This document shows, piece after piece, positions 37,577-63,668 of a stretch of 64,000 nt of DNA. Source of the DNA: Acidithiobacillus sp. (GTDB lineage Bacteria > Pseudomonadota > Gammaproteobacteria > Acidithiobacillales > Acidithiobacillaceae). The stretch covers positions 1-64,000 of the forward strand of contig NZ_JAGDWX010000036.1 of the NCBI RefSeq assembly GCF_023256195.1. The letters are read 5' to 3'. How positions within the stretch are numbered: position 1 is the stretch's first letter; each line of letters begins with the position of its first letter. The position numbers were made by a program, and so were the translations under genes. A model generated the notes under the pieces. That model was not told the DNA's origin, did not search any database, and saw only the letters and a program-made list of their open reading frames with translations.

Positions 37577-37610
37577 CTGTCACAAAACGGTCACATAACT
37601 TTGCTAGACT
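37577..37610 (+). promoter_or_regulatory. Pho box promoter of ppk2
   Basis: Two direct 7-base half-sites, CTGTCAC (37577-37583) and CGGTCAC (37588-37594), lie 11 bases apart. They are followed after exactly 10 bases by the -10 hexamer TAGACT (37605-37610). This matches the PhoB-activated promoter plan, in which the half-sites replace the -35 element. The predicted start near 37617 rules out the TTG start at 37601 for the gene. Confidence 0.8.
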
Positions 37611-43873: not shown

Positions 43874-43929
43874 ATGTCATAAATTTGTCATGTAATCTTC
43901 ATCATAATGTCACAATAAGCTGCTAGGCT
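43874..43929 (+). promoter_or_regulatory. tandem Pho boxes (four half-sites) and -10
   Basis: Half-sites ATGTCAT (43874), TTGTCAT (43885), TCTTCAT (43896) and ATGTCAC (43907) start every 11 bases. Ten bases after the last comes TAGGCT (43924-43929) in a TGCTAGGCT context. The predicted transcript starts near 43936, 27 bases before the receptor ATG. Confidence 0.85.
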
Positions 43930-49445: not shown

Positions 49446-50816
49446 ATGAGCGCCGTCTTCACCACCCTCGATGAACAGTCCATCACGAATCGCCACCGCC
49501 GCATCCTGTGGGCGTCCGGTTTGGGGATCTTTCTCGATGGCTACGACCTCAGCATCATGGCTATTGCCCTGATCGTGCTCAAAGATCAGTGGCATCCGAG
49601 CTCTGCCGCCCTGGGTCTGCTGGGAACGGCGGCCTTGGTGGGTGCCCTGGTCGGGGGGCTGCTGGGCGGACCCATTGCCGATCGCTATGGCCGCAAGACC
49701 ATCTACCTCATCGACATCGCCGCTTTTTTCTTTGCCGCCCTGCTCTCCGGTTCTGCCTGGAACATCGCCTCGCTGGTGGCGTTTCGCTTCCTGCTGGGCC
49801 TCGGCGTCGGTGCCGATTATCCGCTGAGCTCCACTTACATGGCGGAGTTCATGCCCAAGGATCAGCGAGGTGGAGTGATGACCTGGATCTTCGGGCTGTG
49901 GATGGGAGGTGCGGTGGTATCGAGCCTGGTGGGCCTCGCTCTACTGCACACCGGTCCCGATGCCTGGCGCTGGATGCTGGCCTCTGGCGCGTTGCCGGCG
50001 ATCTTGGTCTTGTGGATGCGACGCAATCTGCCGGAGTCGCCGCGCTGGTATCTGCGCCGGGGTCGGGTGGCAGACGCCGAGCGGGTGGTTGCCTGGCTCG
50101 CCCCGCAGTTGACGGAGGCGCAGCGGCGAGCCGCCTTACAAGAGACGGCAGCCGCCATGGAGGGGGCCAAACGCCACAACTGGCTGGACCTTTTTGGCAA
50201 ACGCTACCTCAAACTCACCCTCTACGCCTGTATTCCCTGGTTCATGATGGATGTCATGGGCTACGCTCTGGCTATCTTCCTTCCCCTCATGCTTCTGCAC
50301 CTCGGTCTCAAGACCAACGAACAGGCAGTGATCGGCAATACCTTGTTCAGTCTCGCTTTTGTGATCGGCTGGATACCGCTGGCGCTGCTCATCGATCGTA
50401 TCGGTCGGCGTCGCGCCCAGATCATCGGTTTTCTGGGGGATGCCGTGGGCCTTGGACTCGTCGGAGTGTTGTTGGTAGTTCTGGGTGAGCCACCATTCTG
50501 GGCCGTGGCGACCGGTCTGCTGCTCTTTCAGATCAGCAACAGTTTCGGCCCCGGGACCACCACCTGGATCATTCCCACGGAACTCTACCCCACGGAGCTT
50601 CGGGCTAGCGGCCACGGCTTTGCCACGGCCGTCAGCCGTCTGGGGGCTGCCACCAGCGTTTTCCTGCTGCCCACCGTGCAGGAAAAACTGGGTGAGGCGG
50701 GCCTGCTCTTTCTGCTGGCGGGGGCAGGAGTGGTGGGAGTCGTAACCACCCTCTGGCTCGGTAACGAAATGGCTCGCGAGAGCCTGCCCGAGAGCCTTGA
50801 GCGAAAGGCGGCCTGA
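49446..50816 (+). CDS. MFS transporter, candidate phosphate/organophosphate carrier
   Basis: A 456-aa major facilitator with 12 predicted membrane segments and sugar-porter-type motifs: GPIADRYGRKTIYLID after segment 2, GLGVGADYPLSSTY, NLPESPRWYL before the central loop and DRIGRRRAQ in the second half. This subgroup includes proton-coupled phosphate carriers as well as sugar and aromatic acid carriers, so the substrate is open. Direct control by a Pho box makes phosphate or a phosphate ester likely. GAGGAG lies about 10 bases before the ATG. It converges on the glycosyltransferase gene with a 3-base gap. Confidence 0.85.
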   Translation: MSAVFTTLDEQSITNRHRRILWASGLGIFLDGYDLSIMAIALIVLKDQWHPSSAALGLLGTAALVGALVGGLLGGPIADRYGRKTIYLIDIAAFFFAALLSGSAWNIASLVAFRFLLGLGVGADYPLSSTYMAEFMPKDQRGGVMTWIFGLWMGGAVVSSLVGLALLHTGPDAWRWMLASGALPAILVLWMRRNLPESPRWYLRRGRVADAERVVAWLAPQLTEAQRRAALQETAAAMEGAKRHNWLDLFGKRYLKLTLYACIPWFMMDVMGYALAIFLPLMLLHLGLKTNEQAVIGNTLFSLAFVIGWIPLALLIDRIGRRRAQIIGFLGDAVGLGLVGVLLVVLGEPPFWAVATGLLLFQISNSFGPGTTTWIIPTELYPTELRASGHGFATAVSRLGAATSVFLLPTVQEKLGEAGLLFLLAGAGVVGVVTTLWLGNEMARESLPESLERKAA

Positions 50817-50819
50817 GTC

Positions 50820-51839
50820 CTAGTGCCGGCCGCGCGCCGGCACGAGGTTGGCGATGAATTCGCGGGTACAGCTCGCCCAGTCGTAGACCATGGCGCGCTC
50901 GCGACAGGTCTCGCGCGAGAGATCGAGGGCCGCGCGCGCGGCTTTGCCGAGATCCTCATCGAGAATACCGTTGATACCGCTGCGCACCGTGGCCAGCGGG
51001 CCCACCACCGGGTAGGCAGCCACGGGCACGCCACAGGCGTTGGCCTCCAGAATCACGAGCCCCAAGGTGTCGGTGCGGCTCGGGAAAACCATGACGTCGG
51101 TGGCGGCAAGGTGGCGCGCAAGGTCTTCGCCCTGGCGCATGCCGAGCCAGTGTACCCTGGGATAGCGCGACCGGAGGTCCGCAGCCTGCGGCCCGTCGCC
51201 GATGACGACCTTGCTGCCGGGTAGCTCCAGCCTCAGGAAATCCTCGACATTCTTCTCTACGGCTACCCGCCCGAAGTAGGCAAAAATGGGTCGCGGCAAA
51301 TCCAGGACGGAGCGCCGTTCCGACTCCGATAGGGGACGGAACAGGGAGGTATCCACGCCGCGACTCCACAAGGCGAGGCGGGTGATGCCGCGCGCGCGGA
51401 TTTCGTCGGCCAGGGCCTGGTTGGATACCAGGGTCTGTACGGCGCCGCCGTGGAACCAGCGCAGAAAGGCATAACTCAGGTCCAGGGGTACGGGCGCACG
51501 AGCCGCCAAGTATTCGGGAAAGCGGGTATGGAAAGAGGTGGTGAAATCCCAGCGCCGCCGCTTGCAGTAGAAGCGTGCCGCAAGACCGAGCGGCCCTTCC
51601 GTGGCGATATGCACGGCGTCCGGCTGAAATTCGCCCAGCAGGCGTCGGACCAGAGCATAGGGACGTAGGGTCAGGCGGATTTCCTCGTAGGTGGGGCAGG
51701 GTACGGTACGCTGGCCGAGACTGTTGACGACCAGCACTTCGTGACCGATCTGCTGCGCTTGTCTTGCCGTCTCACTGAGGGCGCGCACGACGCCATTGAT
51801 CTGCGGGTGCCAGGCGTCGGTGACCAGCGCGATCTTCAT
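50820..51839 (-). CDS. glycosyltransferase family 4, probable diacylglycerol glycosyltransferase (Agt/SqdX type)
   Basis: A 339-aa GT-B enzyme: the N-terminal acceptor domain starts TDAWHPQINGVVRAL and contains ATEGPLGLAARFYC and SFHTRFPEYLAAR. The C-terminal donor domain has AYFGRVAVEKNVEDF, VIGDGPQ and PSRTDTLGLVILEANACG (an EX7E-like site with the first Glu replaced by Asp). This pattern is shared by SqdX and by bacterial Agt enzymes that put glucose, glucuronate or sulfoquinovose on diacylglycerol. The start overlaps the plcP-like gene by 4 bases (ATGA), the known plcP-agt arrangement, so lipid remodelling is the favoured role. Confidence 0.87.
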   Translation of the reverse strand: MKIALVTDAWHPQINGVVRALSETARQAQQIGHEVLVVNSLGQRTVPCPTYEEIRLTLRPYALVRRLLGEFQPDAVHIATEGPLGLAARFYCKRRRWDFTTSFHTRFPEYLAARAPVPLDLSYAFLRWFHGGAVQTLVSNQALADEIRARGITRLALWSRGVDTSLFRPLSESERRSVLDLPRPIFAYFGRVAVEKNVEDFLRLELPGSKVVIGDGPQAADLRSRYPRVHWLGMRQGEDLARHLAATDVMVFPSRTDTLGLVILEANACGVPVAAYPVVGPLATVRSGINGILDEDLGKAARAALDLSRETCRERAMVYDWASCTREFIANLVPARGRH

Positions 51840-52675
51840 GCCAGGACGTCCTCATCCAGCACCACGCTTTTCGGATCCAGCAACGGCCGCTGGTCGGCAG
51901 GCAGACCATCGGGTCCCCAATGGACGAGGTGGAACCGACCATCGAAGTCCTCCACCAGGGCGGTGCAGCTCTCTACCCAGTCACCGTCGTTGAAGTACTG
52001 GACCCCGGCAAGATTCTTGATTTCGGCGTGGTGGATGTGACCGCAGACCACGCCATCGAAGCCCGCCTGGTGACAGCGCAAGGCGAGAAACTGCTCGTAC
52101 TGGCTGATGAACTGCACGGCCTTTTTGATGCGATGCTTGACAAAGGCACTGAGGGACCAGCGACTGCGGATGCCAAGCAGGCGATTGATCCGCTGATGGT
52201 AGCGGTTGAGGGCGAGCAGGAGTCCGTAGCCGCGATCCCCCAGGCGGGTCAACCAGACGGCATAACGGGCGCTGACGTCGAACTGATCGCCGTGGGTGAC
52301 CCAGATACGGCGGCCGTCGGCTGTCTCGTGCACGCAGTCGGTGACGATGCGGATGTCACCGAAATGCAGCCCACCGCCCTCGGCCTCCAGCAGGGAATGG
52401 AGAAAACCCAGGATGGGGTCGTGGTTGCCCTGCACATAGACCACCTGAATACCGTTGCGGGCCTGCCGCAGGATTTTTTGGATCACGGTGCTGTGGGCGC
52501 TAGGCCAGTACCAGCGGCGCCGCAGTGCCCACAGATCGATGATGTCGCCCACCAGATACAGGTGTGGCGCCCGATAGTGACGCAAAAAATCGAGCAGGGC
52601 CTCGGCCTGGCAACCCTTGGTTCCCAGGTGGATGTCGGAGATGAAGATGCTTCTGCAGTTGGCGGTTTCGAGCAT
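51836..52675 (-). CDS. plcP: PlcP-type metallophosphoesterase (phospholipase C for lipid remodelling)
   Basis: A 279-aa calcineurin-like metallophosphoesterase. Metal sites are complete: SDIHLG (D14, H16), GDIIDLW (D44, D47), GNHD (83-86), THGDQFD and GHIHHAE. The protein resembles LpxH-like UDP-diacylglucosamine hydrolases, but the ISDIHLGTKGCQAEALLDFL start and the coupled glycosyltransferase match PlcP. PlcP splits the head group off phosphatidylcholine or phosphatidylethanolamine during phosphate starvation to give diacylglycerol. It is divergent from the Pho-controlled regulator gene, with the Pho boxes between them. An LpxH function is the main alternative. Confidence 0.82.
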   Translation of the reverse strand: MLETANCRSIFISDIHLGTKGCQAEALLDFLRHYRAPHLYLVGDIIDLWALRRRWYWPSAHSTVIQKILRQARNGIQVVYVQGNHDPILGFLHSLLEAEGGGLHFGDIRIVTDCVHETADGRRIWVTHGDQFDVSARYAVWLTRLGDRGYGLLLALNRYHQRINRLLGIRSRWSLSAFVKHRIKKAVQFISQYEQFLALRCHQAGFDGVVCGHIHHAEIKNLAGVQYFNDGDWVESCTALVEDFDGRFHLVHWGPDGLPADQRPLLDPKSVVLDEDVLA

Positions 52676-52806: not shown

Positions 52807-52862
52807 ATGTCATCATTTTGTCATAAAAGGTTCATAAAGATGTCATATTAGTCGGGTATCCT
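52807..52862 (+). promoter_or_regulatory. tandem Pho boxes (four half-sites) and -10
   Basis: Half-sites ATGTCAT (52807), TTGTCAT (52818), GGTTCAT (52829) and ATGTCAT (52840) start every 11 bases. After exactly 10 bases follows TATCCT (52857-52862). They are oriented toward the regulator gene at 52925. Whether the same array also serves the divergent plcP-like gene is open, because no minus-strand half-sites are seen. Confidence 0.85.
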
Positions 52863-52924
52863 TACAGCATGAGTCTAAGCTTCGCAACCTGGGCTTGGGC
52901 TGCGACTTTGGGAGGATCCCTACC

Positions 52925-53707
52925 ATGCTGTACGCCCTGATTGCCGGAACCTTGCACCACGCTGTCCACCTCGGCGATGCCCTGGCGCTGTTGAGTGCCG
53001 TGCGCTGGGACGAGATGGACCCCCTTTATCGTGCCCGTACCCTGCTTTTTGGGCAAGCCCCCGAAATCGATGGGCTGACGCAGCGTCTGCGTCGTTCCGG
53101 CGCCTTTCCGCGCCGCGCCACGGACCGGGCGCTCGTAGCTGAGGTGCTGCGCGACTGGCGTCCGCAGCTGCTCATCCTGCTGTCCTGGGAGATCGAGCTG
53201 GCGGCGGATCTACGCCAATGGCTGGCAGGGCCTCAGGGCGAGAAGCTGCGGGTTCTGGCCCTTGGCCCGGAGGGCGACGACCAGGCCATGGCCGCCCTGG
53301 ACGCCGGTGTGCATGCCTATCTCACCTATCCCCTCAGCGAGACCCTGCTGATCGCCCAGGCCAGCGCCTTGCTGCGCGGTGGTCAAGGCTGGGAGGGCAC
53401 CGCCGTGGAGCTGCCGGGAATACTTCGGATCGATCCCATGGCCCACCGGATCTGGGTGCAGGAGCAGGAACTGCAGCTCAGCCGCCGTATTTTTCGCCTC
53501 TTTCATTACCTTGCTCTGCATCCCGGGCAGACTTTCTCGGCCGCAGAGATTGCGCACCACCTGAGCGATGGTCGTAAATTCGTGCAGGAGAACACCATCG
53601 CCGCGCAGATCCACCGCCTGCGCAAGGTGCTGGAGGGCGCGGGGGCGGACGTTTGGCTGGAAACGGTCCACGGCTTTGGTTACCGGCTGAATATACCGGC
53701 TCCTTGA
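52925..53707 (+). CDS. OmpR/PhoB-type regulator with degenerate receiver domain
   Basis: A 260-aa protein with a complete OmpR-type winged helix (about 164-258; LSRRIFRLFHYLALHPGQTF, then TIAAQIHRLRKVLE and TVHGFGYRL). It is preceded by a receiver-like fold without phosphorylation chemistry. The N-terminal acidic pair is missing (YALIAGTL), Ser87 stands at the phospho-Asp position (LLILLSWEI) and Tyr135 at the conserved Lys (AYLTYPL). It should therefore work without a kinase or bind another signal. GGAGG is 9 bases before the ATG. It is transcribed from four Pho half-sites, so PhoB probably induces it. No histidine kinase gene is adjacent. Confidence 0.85.
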   Translation: MLYALIAGTLHHAVHLGDALALLSAVRWDEMDPLYRARTLLFGQAPEIDGLTQRLRRSGAFPRRATDRALVAEVLRDWRPQLLILLSWEIELAADLRQWLAGPQGEKLRVLALGPEGDDQAMAALDAGVHAYLTYPLSETLLIAQASALLRGGQGWEGTAVELPGILRIDPMAHRIWVQEQELQLSRRIFRLFHYLALHPGQTFSAAEIAHHLSDGRKFVQENTIAAQIHRLRKVLEGAGADVWLETVHGFGYRLNIPAP

Positions 53708-53713
53708 GGTCTT

Positions 53714-53791
53714 TTGTCATAAAATTATCATAAAAATGTCACAAAAATGTCATACAAGCTTCATAATACTGTCATATTCCAGTGCTAGGAT
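53714..53791 (+). promoter_or_regulatory. six-half-site Pho box array and extended -10
   Basis: Six 7-base half-sites start at 53714, 53725, 53736, 53747, 53758 and 53769 (TTGTCAT, TTATCAT, ATGTCAC, ATGTCAT, GCTTCAT, CTGTCAT), each separated by 4 A-rich bases. Exactly 10 bases after the last comes TAGGAT (53786-53791) within TGCTAGGAT. The transcript would start near 53797, ahead of exbB. The regulator gene ends 6 bases before the array. Confidence 0.9.
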
Positions 53792-53818
53792 TTGCTCTCC
53801 ACAGCGAGGGACCAATCC

Positions 53819-54505
53819 ATGGACTTTTCCTACATCATTCACCTGGCCAACTATTCTGAAGGTGTGCTCTACGTTCTGGCAGCGCTGCTGCTGGTAGAGT
53901 TGGCGGTCATGGTCGACCGCTTCTGGTATCTGCGCCGCACCATCGTGCGCGGCGATGCCATTGTCCACGAGGTGGCAAATCAGGGCCGGCTCGACCGCGA
54001 ACAGTTGCGAGAGCTTGCCGATCGTGCCGGGGATCTGCCGGAGGGCGTGCTCCTGCGCATGGCCGCTGCGCACGCCGGGCAGGTCAAGGGTGAGGCCCTG
54101 GCCAGCCGGCTGGAAGAGTCGGTCATCACCTTGGCACCCAATCTCGATCGCCGCCTCTGGCTGTTGGACACTATCATCACCCTGGCGCCGTTGCTGGGCC
54201 TCTTCGGCACCATCATCGGCATGTTTCACGCCTTCCACGTGCTGGCCGCGCCCGGACATGCGCCGACGGAGGTCACGGGGGGGGTCGCCGACGCGCTGGT
54301 GGCCACGGCCTCTGGACTGTTCATCGCCATCCTCGGTCTGCTGGCTTTCAACGGCTTCAATAACCAGGTGCGACAGATCCTGCTGCAATTGGATTCGGTC
54401 AAGACCATGCTCATCAACCGCATGGATGGCCAGCCCATGTTGAATCCCGAGGGCGACCAGAACATCGAAACCGCCGAGCTGCCGCGAATGGCGAGGGTCG
54501 GCTGA
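53819..54505 (+). CDS. exbB: ExbB/TolQ-type proton channel subunit
   Basis: A 228-aa inner-membrane protein with three membrane segments (about 14-34, 112-135 and 156-180). The MotA/TolQ/ExbB signature is in the second and third: DTIITLAPLLGLFGTIIGM and GVADALVATASGLFIAI. With ExbD it converts the proton gradient into motion of TonB. The ATG at 53819 has GAGGGA about 8 bases upstream; an upstream TTG frame starts at the -10 region and is excluded. It is the first gene of the long Pho-controlled operon and overlaps exbD by 1 base. Confidence 0.94.
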   Translation: MDFSYIIHLANYSEGVLYVLAALLLVELAVMVDRFWYLRRTIVRGDAIVHEVANQGRLDREQLRELADRAGDLPEGVLLRMAAAHAGQVKGEALASRLEESVITLAPNLDRRLWLLDTIITLAPLLGLFGTIIGMFHAFHVLAAPGHAPTEVTGGVADALVATASGLFIAILGLLAFNGFNNQVRQILLQLDSVKTMLINRMDGQPMLNPEGDQNIETAELPRMARVG

Positions 54506-54906
54506 TGGAGCGGCGTTATTTCGAACAACGCAAGGGGCGGGTGGAGATCATCCCGATGATCGACATCATGCTATTTTTGCTGGTGTTTTTCATCATGATC
54601 ACCCTGCAGATGATCCCCGATCAGGGTCTCAACCTGCAGCTGCCTCAGTCCAGTCAGGCCAAGCAGCTGCCGCGACCGCACTACACCATCAACATCGAAA
54701 AGGATGGCAGCGTCGAAGTGAAAGGCAAACACTATGACCTGGCCGGACTGCAGAATATGTTGGCGCGTGACGGCGATCCGGCCAAGACCGAGATCACCAT
54801 CGCCGCCGACAAGGCCGTGCCTTTCCAGAACTTCATCCACGTCATGGATGCCTGTCAGAAGGCCGGTGTCAGCAACATCGGTATCGCCGCCAAACCCAGC
54901 GCTTGA
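54505..54906 (+). CDS. exbD: ExbD/TolR-type subunit
   Basis: A 133-aa protein with a short cytoplasmic N-terminus, one membrane segment (about 16-36) containing the essential proton-relay Asp20 (PMIDIM), and a periplasmic domain with ITIAADKAVPFQNFIHVMDA. It forms the ExbB-ExbD motor energising TonB. Its ATG overlaps the exbB stop (TGATG). Dedicated exbBD copies next to a receptor and tonB suggest a system separate from a housekeeping one. Confidence 0.94.
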   Translation: MERRYFEQRKGRVEIIPMIDIMLFLLVFFIMITLQMIPDQGLNLQLPQSSQAKQLPRPHYTINIEKDGSVEVKGKHYDLAGLQNMLARDGDPAKTEITIAADKAVPFQNFIHVMDACQKAGVSNIGIAAKPSA

Positions 54907-54943: not shown

Positions 54944-57343
54944 GTGTATACCCATGCGTCCAACACGCATCCCGACGCCCATGCCGGGCAGCAGGGTGCC
55001 GCAATCCTGTTACCTTCGCCGCTTGTCCTTGCCGTGATCGGCGCCCTGTTCGCACCCAGTGTCTTTGCCGCAGACGCGGCTGGCCCCACGGCACCGACGC
55101 AGTCTGCGGCGGTCTCGGTGGGCGAGGTCAGTGCTGCGGCAGCGGCAGAGTCCTATCTGGGCAGCGCGCAGGCGCAGTCCCTGACGCAGAAGCATAATTT
55201 CAATTCCGGTCAGTCCATCAAGGTCCTGGGCAAGGAACAGATGGCGGCAGCGGGTCCTCTGGGTGGCAGTGCCCAGGCTCTGTCCTACGCCCCGGGTGTG
55301 GGCGTCTCCGGCTACGGCTCCACGGGTGCGACCAAGACATCCATCAGTATCAATGGCATCAAGCAGGGCTGGGGCGGCTTTTCCGGCGGCCAGATCGACG
55401 ACGGCAGCCTGTCCGTGGTATTCGACGGCGTGCCCATGGTGGATCCGGGCACGGGGCTCTGGCAGTCGCCCCAGGTGCCACAGACGGGCATCCTGCAGGG
55501 TATCCGGTTGACCTACGGTCCGGGTAACCCCGAAGATCGTTGGTATAACAATATCGGCGGACAGATCGATTTCGTCCCTCTACAGCCGACGGCCAAGCCC
55601 GGCGGCGATATCAAGTTGACCTACGGCAGCTACAATTCCAAGGATATCGTCTTCAATATCCGCACCGGCAGTATCGATGGTTGGTCTACCATCATTGCCG
55701 GTGGTGCCGGGTCCTCCAACAGCTACCGCCAGAGTCCCGATGGTTTCAACAATCCCAGCTACAGCTACGCTTGGTTCTTGAAAACGCGCAAGACCTTCAG
55801 TAACGGCGATTTCTCCGTCGGCGCCTACCTGGCCAAGGGCTCCGGATATAGACCCGTGCCCATTCCGGTGAATCCCATCAATGGTGTGACCTTTACCGGT
55901 GCGACGGGATCCCCCCTCTACAGTCAGGCGACCTCCGGCTTCTACTCCTCGCTTCCAAGGAACATCTGGTACAAGCAGGATAGTAACAGCACTTGGCTGA
56001 TCTACAGCAAGCTCAATATCGCACTGGATCAGACTTGGGGACTACACAATATGGTGTGGTACCGTTACGGTCATCGTTTGCATTTCCACTACAACAACTA
56101 CGGTCTCGGTAACCCATCCAATCTGTACGAGTACAACAACCCACACGATTCTGTTTATGGCGATAAGCTGTGGCTCAGCGCCAAACTGCCCTATAACGAT
56201 GTAAGCTTTGGCGGCTACTTCCTGAACAGCCGTTACAATACCCGCAACGCCTTCTACAATCCGGCGGATGGTGGCACGCGCTTCGTTCCCAATGCGCATT
56301 ACCGCAGCGACTACTTCGACCAGACCTTCCTGGCCGCGTTCCTGCAGGATCGTATCAGTCCGATGAGCAATCTGCACATCACTCCAGGCGTGCGTTTCAT
56401 CAATCTGCAGACCCATTACACGCCGGCGGGGCAGACGGATTTTGCCCAGGCCTATGCCCTCTATCCCAATAACGATCAGGGAAAGCTGCCCGCAGCCAAT
56501 ACCAGCTTCACCAAGGTCGAGCCTTCGGTCGATTTCAATTGGCAGCCGCTGCACTGGCTGGCAGTCTTTGCCAGCTACTCGCAGGCCTACAAGGAGCCGC
56601 AGTTCGGCGGCGGTGGTGGCCTCTTCCAGAAGAAGGCGCCCATCTACAACCTGGAAAAGGGCGCCGACTACAACGCCGGTGTCAAGGTACACTTCCAGAA
56701 TGCCCCCTATCTGCATAACTTTCTGGCCTCGGCGAGCTTTTATCACCTGCATTACACCAACCAGTATATCCCCCTGTACAATGCCAACGGCAGCTACATC
56801 GGCGATGCCAACGGTGACTCAATCTATCAGGGTGTAAATATTGCTATCGAAGACGATATCCTCTACAACCTGCACGTCTTCGCCAACGCCAACTTTGAAA
56901 AGGCGACCTTCGATCACTATGTCACCGGCGGTGTCAGTTACGACGGCCTGCCGGTCTCCAACGTGCCGAACAAGACCTTCAATATCGGCGCCAGCTACCG
57001 CTACTATCTAGCAGGTATATTGTTGAAGCCGAGCCTGTGGTATCAGTACGTCGGCGCCCAGTCCTTGTTCGACAACAACGCGGGTGCTCCCAGTACGACC
57101 AAGATGCCGGGCTATGGCACGCTGAATCTGGGTCTGCACGGAACGGTGCCGATGCAGGGCCGCGTACCGATGCTGAAGACCGTCGATTTCAGCGTCAATA
57201 TCCTCAATATAGCCAATAACCGCTATAACGAGTTCGAGTATATCACCGGTGGTGGTCTTCTGGGTGGCGATTCGGCGGGTCAGGTGCTGGCTCTGCCCGG
57301 TGCTCCCTTGACCGTATACGGCAGTATTTCCGCACATTTCTGA
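54944..57343 (+). CDS. TonB-dependent outer-membrane receptor
   Basis: A 799-aa receptor: a long signal sequence (hydrophobic core about 25-40, cut near VFA-ADA), a candidate TonB box VSVGEVSA (about 62-69), a plug (about 90-235; VSGYGSTGATKTSISINGIK, VVFDGVPMVDPG, LTYGPGNPEDRWYNNIGG) and a barrel rich in Tyr and Asn ending SISAHF. The GTG start at 54944 has AAGGAG 7 bases upstream. Its own exbBD and tonB flank it. The ligand is unknown; the operon content points to an organic phosphate compound. It shares plug motifs and C-terminus with the receptor at 43963-46266. Confidence 0.93.
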   Translation: MYTHASNTHPDAHAGQQGAAILLPSPLVLAVIGALFAPSVFAADAAGPTAPTQSAAVSVGEVSAAAAAESYLGSAQAQSLTQKHNFNSGQSIKVLGKEQMAAAGPLGGSAQALSYAPGVGVSGYGSTGATKTSISINGIKQGWGGFSGGQIDDGSLSVVFDGVPMVDPGTGLWQSPQVPQTGILQGIRLTYGPGNPEDRWYNNIGGQIDFVPLQPTAKPGGDIKLTYGSYNSKDIVFNIRTGSIDGWSTIIAGGAGSSNSYRQSPDGFNNPSYSYAWFLKTRKTFSNGDFSVGAYLAKGSGYRPVPIPVNPINGVTFTGATGSPLYSQATSGFYSSLPRNIWYKQDSNSTWLIYSKLNIALDQTWGLHNMVWYRYGHRLHFHYNNYGLGNPSNLYEYNNPHDSVYGDKLWLSAKLPYNDVSFGGYFLNSRYNTRNAFYNPADGGTRFVPNAHYRSDYFDQTFLAAFLQDRISPMSNLHITPGVRFINLQTHYTPAGQTDFAQAYALYPNNDQGKLPAANTSFTKVEPSVDFNWQPLHWLAVFASYSQAYKEPQFGGGGGLFQKKAPIYNLEKGADYNAGVKVHFQNAPYLHNFLASASFYHLHYTNQYIPLYNANGSYIGDANGDSIYQGVNIAIEDDILYNLHVFANANFEKATFDHYVTGGVSYDGLPVSNVPNKTFNIGASYRYYLAGILLKPSLWYQYVGAQSLFDNNAGAPSTTKMPGYGTLNLGLHGTVPMQGRVPMLKTVDFSVNILNIANNRYNEFEYITGGGLLGGDSAGQVLALPGAPLTVYGSISAHF

Positions 57344-57375
57344 TAGTCCCGGGCGTGGCATCTGCGGATGCCATC

Positions 57376-57416
57376 GCCTGCCTTTGGGATTTTTGCGAAA
57401 GATTCCAAAGGCAGGC
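57376..57416 (+). other. strong intercistronic hairpin between receptor and tonB
   Basis: GCCTGCCTTTGG (57376-57387) and CCAAAGGCAGGC (57405-57416) are perfect 12-base arms. The bases between them extend the pairing to 19 pairs with two G-T wobbles around a GCG loop. No T-run follows, so this is not a typical terminator; it probably protects or processes the mRNA. Confidence 0.75.
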
Positions 57417-57442
57417 TGGGCCATGACGGAGGTAAGCAGTCC

Positions 57443-58192
57443 ATGAGTGTCACGATCAGCAGCCCGGGAATGCCGCGGCGCGGGCCCAAAACCCAGGGAT
57501 ATTTTGGTCGGGGTTTGATCGTCGCCGCGCTGTTGGAAGCAGGCTTGATCTTTGCCCTGGTCTGGGTGAGCAACCAGAAGTCGCCACCGCCACCGCCCAA
57601 ACCCAAGCGCATCGCCATCCACATGGTGCAGCCGGCGCCGCCGAAACCGAAACCGAAACCGGTTCCGCCCAAGCCCGTGGTGCAGCCAAAACCCAAGCCG
57701 GTGCCGAAACCCTTGCCAAAACCCGCACCACAGCCCAAGCCCCAGCCGGTAATACACCACGTCCCAAAACCGACTCCCAAACCGCTGGTGGCCAAGACAC
57801 CCGCGCCCACGGCTCCGGTAGTACCGCCCAGCCCGCCGGTGACGGCGCCACCTCCACCGCCGCCGCCACCCGCCCCGAGCCTTTCGGCGCAGAGAACGGC
57901 CATGGCCGAGTACGCATCTCTGGTGCGGGCGCGGGTGCAGGCGGATACGCGGGTGCCGGAAGCCGTCCGCCTCATGCATCTGCGGGGCACGGCGGTCATT
58001 TCCTTTGAGCTCACTCCGTCTGGACGTCTGGTATCGGCCCGAATCGCGCAATCCAGCGGCATCAGCGCCATCGACAAGGCGGCTCTGGCGGCGGTGGAGA
58101 ACACCAGTTATCCCCCCTTCACCAAGGACATGCCCAAACACACCACGCGCTTTGATGTCGAGGTGCACCTCTCGGCAGAGAGTGGCGGCTGA
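57443..58192 (+). CDS. tonB: TonB energy transducer
   Basis: A 249-aa protein: one membrane segment (about 25-43), a long periplasmic Pro/Lys-rich spacer (about 50-150 with many KPKP and PPP units), and the C-terminal TonB domain (about 165-249; AVRLMHLRGTAVISFELTPS, KAALAAVENTSYPPF). It transmits ExbBD energy to the receptor's TonB box. The start at 57443 has GGAGG about 10 bases upstream; a longer frame to 57368 includes the hairpin and is unlikely. It lies 100 bases after the receptor and 24 before the binding-protein gene. Confidence 0.93.
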   Translation: MSVTISSPGMPRRGPKTQGYFGRGLIVAALLEAGLIFALVWVSNQKSPPPPPKPKRIAIHMVQPAPPKPKPKPVPPKPVVQPKPKPVPKPLPKPAPQPKPQPVIHHVPKPTPKPLVAKTPAPTAPVVPPSPPVTAPPPPPPPPAPSLSAQRTAMAEYASLVRARVQADTRVPEAVRLMHLRGTAVISFELTPSGRLVSARIAQSSGISAIDKAALAAVENTSYPPFTKDMPKHTTRFDVEVHLSAESGG

Positions 58193-58216: not shown

Positions 58217-59230
58217 GTGCGTAGACTCATCTGGATCCTCATTCCCCTGCTCGTCATCGTGGCCGTGTGGAGTTTCTGGCCGCGGCAGAAGGGGGGGCTC
58301 GTCTTCTATAGTGCCGTCAGCTACGGACCCATGCTGGCCCAGGCCTTTACCCGGGAGTCGGGCATTCCGGTCCGGGTGGTGGAAATGTCGACGGGCGCCC
58401 TGCTGGCCAGGGTCTCGGCGCAGGGCAACAACCCGCAGTGGGATGTGGCCTGGTTTGATGGAGCTTCGGCGGCGGCCGGTCTCGACCGCGCCCATCTCGT
58501 GAGCACGGGGATCGTACCTAAGGACATCCCCTGGACCACTCTGGGGAAATCCTTGATTCCCGCAGATGGTGCCTGGATTCCCACGGGTTATACTCTCGCC
58601 GGGGTCTTTCTGCATCCGGCCAAGAGCGCCGCACCGACGACCTGGGACGACCTGTTACAGGCGCGCTGGCGTGGGCATTTTGCCATGAACAACCCAGCCA
58701 TTTCCGGCCCGACCTATCCGCAGGTGGCAGGGTGGCTGGAGAGCCACGGTGGCTGGCCGGCGGGGCAGTCTTTCCTGCTTGCCTTGAAGGGCAATGGCAT
58801 GCAGGTCTTTCCCAAGAACAGCAACACCATCCATGCCTTGACCCAGGGGAATATCGACCTGGCCATCGTCCAGTCATCGGCGGCTTATGCCCTGGCGGCG
58901 GAGCAGCCCGGTCATTGGGCTGTGAGCATCCCAAAGCCGGCGGTGCTCTTGCCGCGCGTGATGGTGTTTGCTAATCACCTGAATCCCAAGCGGGAGCGTG
59001 AGGCCACGGAGTTTGCCCAGTTCATGCTGAGTCCAAAGGCTCAGGAGCTCGCCATGCGCCAGGGAGCGCCGGACGGTTTCTACTGGCCCATCACCCGGAA
59101 TGCTCCGGCGGCGGACCCGGGGATGGCCGACACCCATGCCTTGCCCTTGATCAACCTGGATCCAACACTCTGGGGTGAGCGCGAGAGCGCCATCAATGCC
59201 TGGTTCAGCAGTCATATTCTCGGTCAGTGA
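58217..59230 (+). CDS. ABC importer substrate-binding protein (iron/organophosphate type)
   Basis: A 337-aa periplasmic binding protein with an N-terminal hydrophobic segment (about 4-20) that may anchor it or be cleaved. The fold is that of the Fe3+/thiamine/2-aminoethylphosphonate group: GLVFYSAVSYGPMLAQAFTR, NPQWDVAWFDG, TWDDLLQARWRGHFAMNNPA, and a C-terminal FAQFMLSPKAQELA. The ligand residues of ferric-binding proteins (paired Tyr) are not evident, so an organophosphate ligand fits the operon better; this is inference. The GTG start at 58217 has AAGGA upstream. Confidence 0.85.
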   Translation: MRRLIWILIPLLVIVAVWSFWPRQKGGLVFYSAVSYGPMLAQAFTRESGIPVRVVEMSTGALLARVSAQGNNPQWDVAWFDGASAAAGLDRAHLVSTGIVPKDIPWTTLGKSLIPADGAWIPTGYTLAGVFLHPAKSAAPTTWDDLLQARWRGHFAMNNPAISGPTYPQVAGWLESHGGWPAGQSFLLALKGNGMQVFPKNSNTIHALTQGNIDLAIVQSSAAYALAAEQPGHWAVSIPKPAVLLPRVMVFANHLNPKREREATEFAQFMLSPKAQELAMRQGAPDGFYWPITRNAPAADPGMADTHALPLINLDPTLWGERESAINAWFSSHILGQ

Positions 59231-59238
59231 GGGGTATC

Positions 59239-60831
59239 GTGCGCGGTTTTCGAGGCGTCCTGCGAACTCTTCCGGTGTGGCTGATCATCCTGATCTTTTT
59301 CGTCTATCCCTTGGGTCGCTTTCTGCTGTTGCCCTGGTTCCCGGATTGGGCGCCCCAGAGCATCGGGGCGACTTCCTGGCCCAGTGATACCTGGGCGGCC
59401 CTGCGGAACTCCCTGCTGCTTGCCACGGCGGCGGCGATTATCGCGGCCTTGTTGGGGACCCTCTGGGCTTGGGCCATGGAGCGTCGGAGCAGCGTCTGGC
59501 ATCCTTGGTCGGAGGCGATTCTCTGGCTGATCTTTCTCATGCCCAGCTATCTTTTGAGCACGGGCTGGGAGATTCTCTTCGCCGCCCCGGCCCTTCGCCA
59601 CGGCCTCCTGCATGAGTGGTTCTACAGCCCTTTGGGTATCGTTGCCCTGCTGGCTGCCAAGGCGCTGCCCTTTGCCGTATTCGTGGTACGTCCACTGTGG
59701 GCTGCCCTGGGGCATGAACTGACGGAAGCGATGCGCATCTTTGCGGTACGTCCGGGGCGGGCGCTCTGGATTTTTCTGCGCCTGGCCATTCCCGTTGCCT
59801 CGGCGGCCCTGGTAGTATCCTTCATCGAGAGCGTGCAGGAATTTGGCATTCCCGCGACCCTGGGAGCCCACTTGCACCTGCCGATCCTGACCTATTCCAT
59901 CTACTCGGCCTTGAGTACCTCGCCCCTGAATTTCGTGGGCGCGTCGCGTCTGGCCTTGCTGCTGGTGGTTCTGGCGCTTTCCGGAGCCTTGTTGCAGATC
60001 GTCTTGCAGAAGCGATTCGGTGCGGTGCTGGTGCATGGGCAGGTACGGCATCGGCTGCCATCGCGACCTCGGCGATCCGAAGCGGCCATGATCGCCGCTC
60101 TCAATCTGTCGGTGGGCCTGCTCGTTTTGTTCCTTCCTATGCTGGCCGTGGTCGGCTCCGCCTTTCGTGGTGGCTGGGCAGCATTGCGCACCGCCGACTG
60201 GAGTCCGGTCCTGCACTCCCTGGGGTTTTCGCTGATGGCGGCGTCTCTGGCGATCCTGCTCGCCTGGCTCTTTGCCCGCAGCCTGGTCTCCGGGGGGGTC
60301 GGTGGCCGGGCGATGGATGTTTTTTCCATGGGCAACATGGCCGTTCCCGGACTGGTACTGGGGGCTGCCTATATCATGGCTTTCAATGTGCCGGGCTTTT
60401 CGCTGTATGGTGGCAGTCTCTTGCTGATCCTTGCCTACACCGCCGCCACGGCACCGATGCTCACCCGTCTCCTGCAGGCGCCCATGGCGCAGCTGGATCG
60501 CTCTTTGGGGGATGCGGCTCGGATCCACGGGGTATCGGCATGGGCTCGCTGGCTGGATATCGACGCGGCTCTACTGTCGCGACCGCTGGTGCGCGGCTGG
60601 CTCCTGGCTTTTGGCACCGTGATGTTTGAACTGCCCGTATCGGAGCTGCTGTATCCGGCGGGTAAGACCCCCCTGGGCGTTGCCGTTCTGGCCCTGAACA
60701 ACGGCGAGCATTATGCGGCGGCGGCGCGCCTTGCCCTCGGCGGCCTCGCCAGCGTGGCGCTGGTGACTGTGGCGGTGCTGGTGCTATTGCGCCTGGCACT
60801 GCCGGACTATCGTGTGCTTGTGGCAGAATAG
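59239..60831 (+). CDS. ABC importer permease, fused two-domain
   Basis: About 530 aa, with roughly twelve membrane segments, equal to two FbpB-type permease domains in one chain. EAA-loop-like sequences lie near residues 165-195 and 445-475 (SLGDAARIHGVSAWARWLDI). Fused permeases of this type occur in ferric, AfuB sugar-phosphate and 2-aminoethylphosphonate importers. The start is GTG 59239 with GAGGGG 4 bases upstream; GTG 59227, which overlaps the preceding stop as GTGA, is the alternative. It works with the flanking binding protein and ATPase. Confidence 0.88.
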   Translation: MRGFRGVLRTLPVWLIILIFFVYPLGRFLLLPWFPDWAPQSIGATSWPSDTWAALRNSLLLATAAAIIAALLGTLWAWAMERRSSVWHPWSEAILWLIFLMPSYLLSTGWEILFAAPALRHGLLHEWFYSPLGIVALLAAKALPFAVFVVRPLWAALGHELTEAMRIFAVRPGRALWIFLRLAIPVASAALVVSFIESVQEFGIPATLGAHLHLPILTYSIYSALSTSPLNFVGASRLALLLVVLALSGALLQIVLQKRFGAVLVHGQVRHRLPSRPRRSEAAMIAALNLSVGLLVLFLPMLAVVGSAFRGGWAALRTADWSPVLHSLGFSLMAASLAILLAWLFARSLVSGGVGGRAMDVFSMGNMAVPGLVLGAAYIMAFNVPGFSLYGGSLLLILAYTAATAPMLTRLLQAPMAQLDRSLGDAARIHGVSAWARWLDIDAALLSRPLVRGWLLAFGTVMFELPVSELLYPAGKTPLGVAVLALNNGEHYAAAARLALGGLASVALVTVAVLVLLRLALPDYRVLVAE

Positions 60832-60843
60832 GAGCGAGACCAT

Positions 60844-61944
60844 ATGGCGACGGCAAGGGAAAGGATGCCTGCGGTGAGCACCGCGCAAGAGATGGGAGCC
60901 AGCGAGGCCGCGTCGCTTCTGGAAGTGGAAGGGCTGCACCTGCGTCTGGGCAAAAAGGCGGTGCTGCGTGGCATCGACCTGAACCTGCGCAAGGGTGAAG
61001 TCGTGCTCATCATCGGTCCGTCAGGGTCTGGCAAGAGCAGCCTTTTGCGCGCCATCGCCGGTCTGGAGCCGCTCGAGAGAGGAAGTATCCGCCTGTGTGG
61101 GAAGGTTTTGGACGACGGTCGAGGTACCGCTTTGGATCCGGAACAGCGGCGGATGGCCATGGTTTTCCAGGATCACGCGCTCTGGCCACACCTGTCGGTG
61201 CAGGAAAATGTGGGGCTGGTGATTCCCGGTCGCGACGGTCGCGACAAGGCCCTGGCGCTTCTAGAGCGCATGGGTATCGCCCACCTGGCGAAACGTCGTC
61301 CCCACGAGATTTCCGGGGGGCAGCGGCAGCGGGTGGGTCTGGCGCGAGCACTGGCCGTCGCGCCGAGTCTGATGCTCATGGACGAGCCGCTGTCCAGTCT
61401 CGATGTGGAGCTGCGCGAACAGTTGCGCCTGGAGATCCGCCGCTGCTTGCGTGCGCTGGATATCGGTGCCCTGATCGTCAGCCACGATCCCGACGATCTC
61501 TGGCGTCTTGCGGATCGGGTCGTGGTTTTGGCGGATGGCCACATCGTGCAGGATGGTCCGCCCCAGGCCCTCTACGATCGCCCTCGGTTGCCCTGGATTG
61601 CCCGTTTTACCGGTGCGCAGGGTCCGTTCCCGGCGCAATGTAAGGATGGTGCGCTCACTGTTGCCGGGCAGCGACTGGCGCTGGCGGGCTCTGTGGGCGA
61701 GGCAGGTCCCGGAATGCTCTTCATCCGACCCGAAAGCGTACAGATCCGGACGGAGGAGCAGCAGGGGCTTGTCGGCGTGCTGCGCCATTGTGCCTTCGAA
61801 CGCGGTCACTATCGCAGCTACTGGGAGCTTCCGGGTTTGTCCGAGTCTCTGGTGGCTACCTCCTCCGTGGCGCCGCCGCCGCGCGCCCGGCTCTGGATCG
61901 ATCCGAGCCAGCTTTTCTTCTTTCCACAGTCTCCACAGGAGTGA
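60844..61944 (+). CDS. ABC importer ATP-binding protein
   Basis: A 366-aa ATPase with Walker A GPSGSGKSS (58-66), signature ISGGQRQ (157-163), Walker B LMLMDEP (177-183), the switch His in SHDPDD and a C-terminal TOBE-like domain (about 265-360). An N-terminal extension of about 22 residues precedes the domain. The closest families are FbpC, PhnT-like and AfuC ATPases. It lies 12 bases after the permease and is followed without a gap by the membrane-protein gene. Confidence 0.9.
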   Translation: MATARERMPAVSTAQEMGASEAASLLEVEGLHLRLGKKAVLRGIDLNLRKGEVVLIIGPSGSGKSSLLRAIAGLEPLERGSIRLCGKVLDDGRGTALDPEQRRMAMVFQDHALWPHLSVQENVGLVIPGRDGRDKALALLERMGIAHLAKRRPHEISGGQRQRVGLARALAVAPSLMLMDEPLSSLDVELREQLRLEIRRCLRALDIGALIVSHDPDDLWRLADRVVVLADGHIVQDGPPQALYDRPRLPWIARFTGAQGPFPAQCKDGALTVAGQRLALAGSVGEAGPGMLFIRPESVQIRTEEQQGLVGVLRHCAFERGHYRSYWELPGLSESLVATSSVAPPPRARLWIDPSQLFFFPQSPQE

Positions 61945-61946
61945 AC

Positions 61947-62666
61947 ATGTCGCCCTGGCAAATCGTTACCGCCACCGGTCTTGCGGCCATCGTCGAATGG
62001 GTCGAGGCCTTCACCATCGTCCTCGCTGTCGCCCTCACCATCGGCTGGCCGCGGGCCTTGGGGGCAAGTCTCGCCGCTATCGTGACCTTGGTGGTCATGA
62101 CGGCCGTAGGGGGAAGCCTGCTCCTGGCGGGTATCGATATCCAGTGGCTGCAGGCAATAGTGGGGATATTCCTGCTCTTTTTCGGCAGTCGCTGGTTGGC
62201 CAAGGCCATTGCCCGTGCCGCCGGACGGGTGCCTCTGCACGATGAGGAAAAGGCCTTTGCCAAGACCCAGAACCTGCTCCGCGGCGATGTCTCGGCGGCC
62301 TGGCTCGTGGCCTACAAGGGCGTGCTTTTGGAGGGGCTGGAAGTTTGGCTGATCGTCATCGCTCTGGGTGCCCAGACCCACACCATCGATCTGGCCGCTG
62401 CTGCCGCCGCCGGTGCCCTGGTGTTGGTGGCCTTGGCTGGAGCTATCATCCACCGACCGTTGCGGCGGGTTCCCGAAAACAGCATGAAATTTTTTGTCGG
62501 TGCCATGATTACGGCCTTCGGCAGTTATTGGAGCCTGCACGCCCTGGGTCTGCAGTGGCCGGGAGAGGATGCCGCGATCTTGGCTCTGGTGGCATTCTAT
62601 CTCCTGACGGGGATCGTCGCGGTCCTGATGCTGCGGACCAACAAGGTGCGAGGGGTAGCGGCATGA
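61947..62666 (+). CDS. polytopic membrane protein with duplicated ExxE motif (COG4280-like)
   Basis: A 239-aa inner-membrane protein with about seven hydrophobic segments. Two segments carry the same motif: E17-W-V-E20 followed by AFTIVLAVAL, and E129-G-L-E132 followed by VWLIVIALG. Paired acidic ExxE motifs in an internal repeat recall FTR1/GDT1-like cation transporters, though the family assignment is only a resemblance. AGGAG lies 7 bases before the ATG, which follows the ATPase stop by 2 bases. The stop overlaps the next small gene (ATGA). Function unknown; a counter-ion or export partner of the ABC system is a guess. Confidence 0.8.
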   Translation: MSPWQIVTATGLAAIVEWVEAFTIVLAVALTIGWPRALGASLAAIVTLVVMTAVGGSLLLAGIDIQWLQAIVGIFLLFFGSRWLAKAIARAAGRVPLHDEEKAFAKTQNLLRGDVSAAWLVAYKGVLLEGLEVWLIVIALGAQTHTIDLAAAAAAGALVLVALAGAIIHRPLRRVPENSMKFFVGAMITAFGSYWSLHALGLQWPGEDAAILALVAFYLLTGIVAVLMLRTNKVRGVAA

Positions 62667-62839: not shown

Positions 62840-62867
62840 TGTGCAGCAGAAAAAGGAGGGGAGCGTG

Positions 62868-63668
62868 ATGTGGTGGATGATCTGGCTGCTGGTAGGGCTG
62901 CTTGGTGGGTTGGAGCCGGCGACGGCCTGGGCCGAGGGCCCCGTTCCGCCCGCGACGGAGATGCGATTTCAGCACTACACCTTTGCCATGTTGTGGCAGC
63001 CAGGGGTGTGCAAGACCTGGACCGATGTGGGCGCGAGTTGCAGTAACATCGGCCCGCGCTCGCGTGCCAGTCAGGAGTGGAGCCTGCACGGTCTCTGGGC
63101 CAGCCGTCCCGAGGTGCTGGTCCGTCAGCAGGTACCGGACGAGACTTGGTGGCGCTATGGCTGCAACTGGTTCGAGCCGGGCCACCCACCGCTCCCGCAC
63201 GATTCCTGCAGCGCCCTGCCGGCCCTGAAGCTATCACCGGCCGTCGAGCAGCGTTTGCATGCGCACATGCCCATGGCGAGTAACTGTCTGGACCGGCATG
63301 AATTCTACAAGCACGAGGTGTGCTTCGGCTCCAGTCCCGATGCCTACTTCAGCCAGGCTCTGCGCCTTCTGGACAGGGTCAATGCCAGTAGCTTCACGGC
63401 CTTCGTCCGCGATCATCGCGGTGAGTGGGTGCGTCGCGATGCCTTGCTGCGGGCCTTCGCCGATGCTTTTCACGGCCACAGCGATGCGCTGGAGCTGCGC
63501 TGCGAACAGCCCGATGGTAAGCGCGGTGGGTCTCGGAGCGAGGGTACCGTATTGACGGAGGCCTGGATCACCTTGCGCGCGGACAAGGTCGCCGACTTTC
63601 CTGCGGGCGACAGCTTGATGGCGGGGCGCAAGGGGAACTGCGCGCGCCTCATCCACATCCTGCCCTGA
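62868..63668 (+). CDS. secreted ribonuclease T2
   Basis: A 266-aa periplasmic or secreted RNase of the T2 family: a signal peptide (about 1-22, cut near AWA), the first active-site motif WSLHGLW with His74, and the second, HEFYKHEVC, with His144, Glu145, Lys148 and His149. Cysteines for disulfides are present. It cleaves RNA to 2',3'-cyclic and 3'-nucleotides, a source of phosphate. The start ATG 62868 has AGGAGG 8 bases upstream; GTG 62841 would add nine residues before the signal peptide. It is part of the exbB operon. Confidence 0.92.
   Translation: MWWMIWLLVGLLGGLEPATAWAEGPVPPATEMRFQHYTFAMLWQPGVCKTWTDVGASCSNIGPRSRASQEWSLHGLWASRPEVLVRQQVPDETWWRYGCNWFEPGHPPLPHDSCSALPALKLSPAVEQRLHAHMPMASNCLDRHEFYKHEVCFGSSPDAYFSQALRLLDRVNASSFTAFVRDHRGEWVRRDALLRAFADAFHGHSDALELRCEQPDGKRGGSRSEGTVLTEAWITLRADKVADFPAGDSLMAGRKGNCARLIHILP

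Follow-up and report, generated by a model that had tools for sequence, protein, structure and literature searches.

Analysis of the window (the whole stretch of 64,000 nucleotides of Acidithiobacillus sp. DNA) revealed six tandem 11-base units in front of an exbB-like gene. The observation holds up, and the sister species conserves the array. Very probably a PhoB-dependent promoter of the sigma-70 type has its activator site here and drives an operon of exbB, exbD, a TonB receptor gene, tonB and an ABC importer (with an RNase gene). This explanation is built on features that were all seen directly: the sites and their phase, an unvarying gap to the -10 element, the regulon context and the conservation.

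Architecture of the array and its promoter

53714..53779, + strand: six 11-base direct-repeat units, predicted PhoB half-sites (sequence, scores, conservation in the sister species)
53714..53735, + strand: units 1-2 (TTGTCATAAAA TTATCATAAAA), an extra distal PHO box, not present in the 17 extra-genus relatives examined at the orthologous promoter
53736..53779, + strand: units 3-6, the four-unit module standard in the family (strong, strong, weak TTCAT, strong), with a plan like that of E. coli pstS
53758..53768, + strand: unit 5, GCTTCATAATA, a conserved weak unit (family consensus nnTTCATAATA)
53783..53791, + strand: extended -10 of the predicted promoter, TGC TAGGAT, read from the sequence (TG at 53783-53784, hexamer at 53786-53791)

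The array reads TTGTCATAAAA TTATCATAAAA ATGTCACAAAA ATGTCATACAA GCTTCATAATA CTGTCATATTC and is built of 11-nt units repeated in tandem in the same direction, each around a core of the TGTCA type. The half-site cores start at 53715, 53726, 53737, 53748, 53759 and 53770, which bears out the strict 11-base phase claimed in the initial annotation. Matches to TGTCAY amount to 6, 5, 6, 6, 4 and 6 of 6 in units 1 to 6; the register is thus perfect and the unit quality uneven, the core of unit 5 (GCTTCAT) being weak. The sum of 33/36 compares with a best value of 26 among 200 first-order Markov windows and a maximum of 27 when the local A+T-rich composition was simulated 20,000 times. Phased three-unit matches with at most 3 mismatches occurred 8 times in the window against 0.04 expected, and under the local composition the probability that two further in-register units would score like units 1-2 by chance was about 1e-4. 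No other six-unit array was found in this genome.

The spacing from the last core to the hexamer TAGGAT is exactly 10 bases, and the TG of an extended -10 is present, as originally described; the array stands at a fixed distance from a predicted -10, in the position of a -35 element. The hexamer is identical to TATAAT at 4/6 positions, which counts against the promoter reading. The same 10-base gap to a -10-like hexamer is common to the scanned array promoters, the exceptions being L111, L112, L029 and G013, and it can also be read off the sequences of E. coli pstS, phoA and phoB. The weak two-unit matches L111 and L112, which have no -10 at the standard gap, are regarded as chance, and at L029 the scan counts a fifth weak unit, the standard gap being measured from the fourth. 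Mean matches to TATAAT were 4.31 in 16 two-unit promoters versus 3.85 in 55 four-unit promoters, a comparison of loci partly picked by the four-unit pattern, from which no conclusion on a trade-off between unit number and -10 quality is drawn.

Effector domains of PhoB bind direct units head to tail, active PhoB dimers oligomerise on DNA in a hierarchical and cooperative manner, and PhoB touches sigma-70 (PMC4415409). If PhoB acts here as it does in E. coli, phosphate starvation would lead PhoR to phosphorylate PhoB, whose dimers would load head to tail on the 11-base units, and three dimers could occupy the 66 bases; the side-by-side loading proposed in the initial annotation is plausible, and the very strong or steeply cooperative switch proposed there is a hypothesis. 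The proximal pair sits at the place of a -35, with 10 bases up to the -10, and would recruit RNA polymerase by a contact of the E. coli type. Units 1-2 would form the site of a third dimer and most likely raise the occupancy of the module at lower levels of phosphorylated PhoB via neighbour contacts, giving earlier or stronger induction. We infer that the six-unit promoter would have a lower threshold or a higher output than a four-unit version.

The Pho regulon and the downstream operon

The 1.98 Mb genome (37 contigs) encodes PhoB (TIGR02154, 305.5 bits, cut-off 296.2) and PhoR (TIGR02966, 381.1, cut-off 334.2), which are grouped with PstB and PhoU on another contig, each of the four above its curated cut-off. 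The three-unit pattern with at most 3 mismatches hit the genome 17 times and its reversed form 0 times; these hits cluster in a few arrays. With gene names taken from profile matches or from reading of translations, four-unit arrays were found upstream of a gene for a PstS that clears its cut-off, an olsB-like gene that does not, an MFS transporter gene, TonB-receptor-like genes and the regulator gene at 52895, and two-unit sites upstream of pstB, a second pstS, ppk2 and the MFS gene at 49446. The same sites therefore precede the known Pho genes pstS, pstB and ppk2. Since PhoB, PhoR, PstB and PhoU are encoded and phased arrays stand before other Pho genes, the promoter at 53714 is, judged by sequence, a Pho-regulon promoter, in agreement with the initial annotation, and the operon behind it looks like one for phosphate scavenging.

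Several further sites were observed during the scan. A four-unit array at 43875-43918 precedes another TonB-receptor-like gene (767 aa), and a two-unit site at 37578-37599 precedes the polyphosphate kinase 2 gene (over cut-off), which would place polyphosphate metabolism in the Pho regulon. A two-unit site lies within the end of phoR, ahead of pstB-phoU (L030 7525, C28); no array was seen directly before phoB in the scan. Another array (L106 4027, G000:C31) shows a different unit order with the second unit weak (GTCAC..TTCAT..TGTCATCAT..TGTCAY), an order that recurs in many family genomes; in L106 it precedes a gene, possibly for a porin, that has no NCBIfam match. A glycosyltransferase and metallophosphoesterase gene pair on the minus strand (50820-52675) resembles the Agt/PlcP pair for phosphorus-free membrane lipids; considered alongside the olsB-like gene that follows an array (L026), it suggests lipid remodelling under phosphate starvation.

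The genes behind the six-unit array are as follows.

53819..54505, + strand: exbB-like, first gene of the operon (Pfam MotA_ExbB)
54505..54906, + strand: exbD-like (Pfam ExbD)
54944..57343, + strand: TonB-dependent outer-membrane receptor (Pfam)
57368..58192, + strand: tonB-like (Pfam TonB_C)
58217..61944, + strand: ABC importer comprising a binding protein, a double permease and an ATPase (the NCBIfam models that come nearest, none reaching its cut-off, describe putative 2-aminoethylphosphonate transporters)
62841..63668, + strand: Ribonuclease I (T2)-like (below the model cut-off)

The genes from exbB to the RNase gene are assumed, from their order, to form a single transcript. The best named relatives of the receptor belong to Igneacidithiobacillus (77%) and Acidithiobacillus ferrivorans (75%), pointing to the family Acidithiobacillaceae. 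A membrane-protein-like open reading frame at 61788-62666, without NCBIfam match at 1e-10, also lies in the operon; its start overlaps the ATPase gene, and the true start is probably further in. The predicted content of the operon, with a receptor and ExbBD/TonB, an importer and an RNase I-like protein, agrees with a role in taking up organic phosphorus. The array would also tie to phosphate control an acidophile TonB/ExbBD import operon whose kind had been interpreted before as serving iron uptake.

Fur recognises a 19-base palindromic consensus, and the A+T-rich array could mainly serve the control of a TonB/ExbBD operon for iron uptake by iron and Fur. TonB-receptor clusters behind PhoB-like regulators in acidithiobacilli have indeed been described as iron-phosphate systems (PMC2631029). 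However, the best Fur match within 53650-53850 reaches 11/19 against this consensus, a background level, given that 146 places in the window, both strands counted, score at least 11; a phase of 11 bases and a fixed gap are, moreover, features of PHO boxes. Fur control of the array was rejected and is regarded as extremely improbable.

Unit number in relatives and the possible role of the distal pair

A relaxed four-unit pattern with a weak third unit was present in 27/29 family genomes; the two genomes that gave no match have a completeness of just 61% and 71%. Among 86 distinct promoters with the fixed-gap -10, two units were counted in 13, three in 8, four in 60, five in 2 and six in 3, in a tally whose loci were partly selected by the four-unit pattern and in which one three-unit row (L074, + strand) looks spurious. 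In the period test at the family loci, step 11 yielded 55 anchors bearing four units or more, and steps 9, 10, 12 and 13 yielded 0. Both the size distribution and the period test are biased by this selection; the whole-genome counts with reversed controls are independent of it. The consensus of the 65 promoters with at least four units reads nTGTCATAAAA, nTGTCATAAAA, nnTTCATAATA, nTGTCACATTn, and on this basis the weak third unit of the module looks like a conserved variant rather than decay. By these sequence comparisons, four units are the norm in the family and the array at 53714 is the standard module with one extra pair. The view of this array as a unique oddity was therefore rejected.

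The initial annotation had proposed a genome search for arrays of at least five half-sites at 11-base steps. Five-unit arrays with at most 2 mismatches were found in 24/369 class genomes. The reversed control matched 3 genomes (G316, G381, G395), and since G316 matched both patterns through a short tandem repeat, some of the 24 are non-PHO repeats. A strict pattern of six units (at most 3 mismatches in 36) occurred in 1/369 class genomes, the window's own, a count that understates the frequency of long weak arrays because the pattern would miss E. coli ugpB. A relaxed six-unit pattern matched 4/29 family genomes, two of them outside the genus of the window: in G017 the array keeps the standard gap and stands before a TonB-receptor-like gene, and in G013 there is no -10 at that gap.

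For the orthologous promoter, which lies between the regulator gene and exbB, the comparison covered 18 relatives (L032-L049, regulator identity of about 46% and above) from 27 fetched loci with a regulator homologue. Six units stand in the sister species, four in six genomes and three in eleven, and the proximal strong-weak-strong units are kept in all 18. As 17 of the 18 do without units 1-2, the extra pair is not essential to this type of promoter. Such absence, and the little sequence difference among the units, would also suit units 1-2 being a neutral leftover of slippage or duplication in an A-rich repeat that adds nothing to the promoter. The comparison with the sister species (L032), in which all six units are present and unit 2 is a perfect match, speaks against this: in units 1-2 the spacers changed while the unit bases were kept except one, and the bases just upstream diverged more, although the numbers are small. 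Over the two six-unit promoters, 1/42 unit bases differ versus 5/24 spacer bases (Fisher p = 0.021), or 1/36 versus 5/30 when 6-base cores are used (p = 0.084), which is modest evidence that the units are under constraint. We consider the neutral origin unlikely. With 3, 4 or 6 units at one orthologous promoter within a single family and the -10 gap constant, these promoters constitute a natural dosage series, natural variants through which the gain from additional PhoB sites can be studied, be it in threshold, in strength, in speed or none at all.

A second possible reader of the array is encoded directly upstream.

52807..52850, + strand: four-unit PHO array ahead of the regulator gene (pattern scan)
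52895..53707, + strand: PhoB-family regulator with degenerate receiver domain, a possible second reader of the array (profiles, alignment)

The regulator shows 28% identity to PhoB over nearly its whole length after a conserved 46-residue N-terminal extension (MLYALIAGTLHHAVHL...), and at 88.1 bits it falls short of the PhoB equivalog cut-off of 296.2. Receiver domains depend on an acidic pocket, a phospho-accepting Asp and a conserved Lys. All three are absent from its receiver in the alignment with PhoB, VVEDE being changed to LFGQA, the Asp position to Ser and TKPF to TYPL; some relatives have Asp at the phospho-acceptor position, where this protein has Ser. The regulator is possibly phosphorylation-independent.

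The array, or its distal pair, might be read by this protein, either by itself or together with PhoB in mixed tandem assemblies. The regulator gene is preceded by a four-unit array, which the sister species retains, and adjoins exbB in 18/18 close homologues tested. The recognition-helix region is conserved in close homologues and unlike that of PhoB (NT[IV]AAQ[IV]HRLRK-like versus RTVDVHIRRLR). This divergence has another side, since several DNA-reading helix residues of PhoB are changed and the protein may read other DNA. Moreover, the 17 other relatives carrying the regulator gene have three or four units only at the same promoter, and the four-unit plan is shared with E. coli, whose PHO boxes the literature attributes to PhoB. 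Reading by the neighbour is accordingly judged quite unlikely. A more elaborate scheme, in which the regulator is a phosphorylation-independent partner that is switched on by PhoB, co-occupies the arrays in mixed head-to-tail assemblies and locks the scavenging operon on, the extra pair being its foothold in the genus, is a speculation to which we give little credence; if true, it would place a feed-forward loop within one 1-kb stretch. Of all that the locus raises, the uncharacterised PhoB-like regulator deserves the most attention, and PhoB remains the preferred reader of the array.

Comparison with known systems

The PHO box is defined as two 11-nt units (PMC4415409), and the initial annotation had set the six units against such a classical two-repeat box. 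This contrast is misleading, as four units are the norm in the family and also occur in E. coli pstS, and longer arrays are found in ugpB and pitH2. Like the module described here, pstS has four 11-base-phased units, the third weak and the fourth core 10 bases from the -10 (CTGTCAT, CTGTCAT, CTTACAT, CTGTCAC, 10 bases, TATTTT); unlike here, the extra distal pair is absent, and a fifth partial unit is scored downstream, overlapping the -10.

TonB receptor and ExbBD/TonB genes behind OmpR-family PhoB-like regulators, a similar arrangement, have been described in Acidithiobacillus clusters, which were read as iron uptake in a paper whose main text does not contain the term 'pho box' (PMC2631029). 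No paper on PHO-box arrays in Acidithiobacillus was found in the part of the literature covered, which is weak evidence of absence.

Long arrays have precedents elsewhere. E. coli ugp has 'multiple PHO boxes' (Kasahara 1991, cited in PMC4415409), and our scan gave seven units in 11-base phase at ugpB, which are weaker (5, 6, 5, 4, 5, 4 and 5 of 6) than the six described here. The PhoP-bound pitH2 operator of S. coelicolor comprises four core and two ancillary 11-nt units within a footprint of 64 nt that fills as PhoP rises; its consensus and regulator differ, and its units were footprinted whereas those of the present array are predicted (PMC7866108). Given the seven units of ugpB and the six of pitH2, long phased arrays are already known, and the six-unit array itself is not new in kind.
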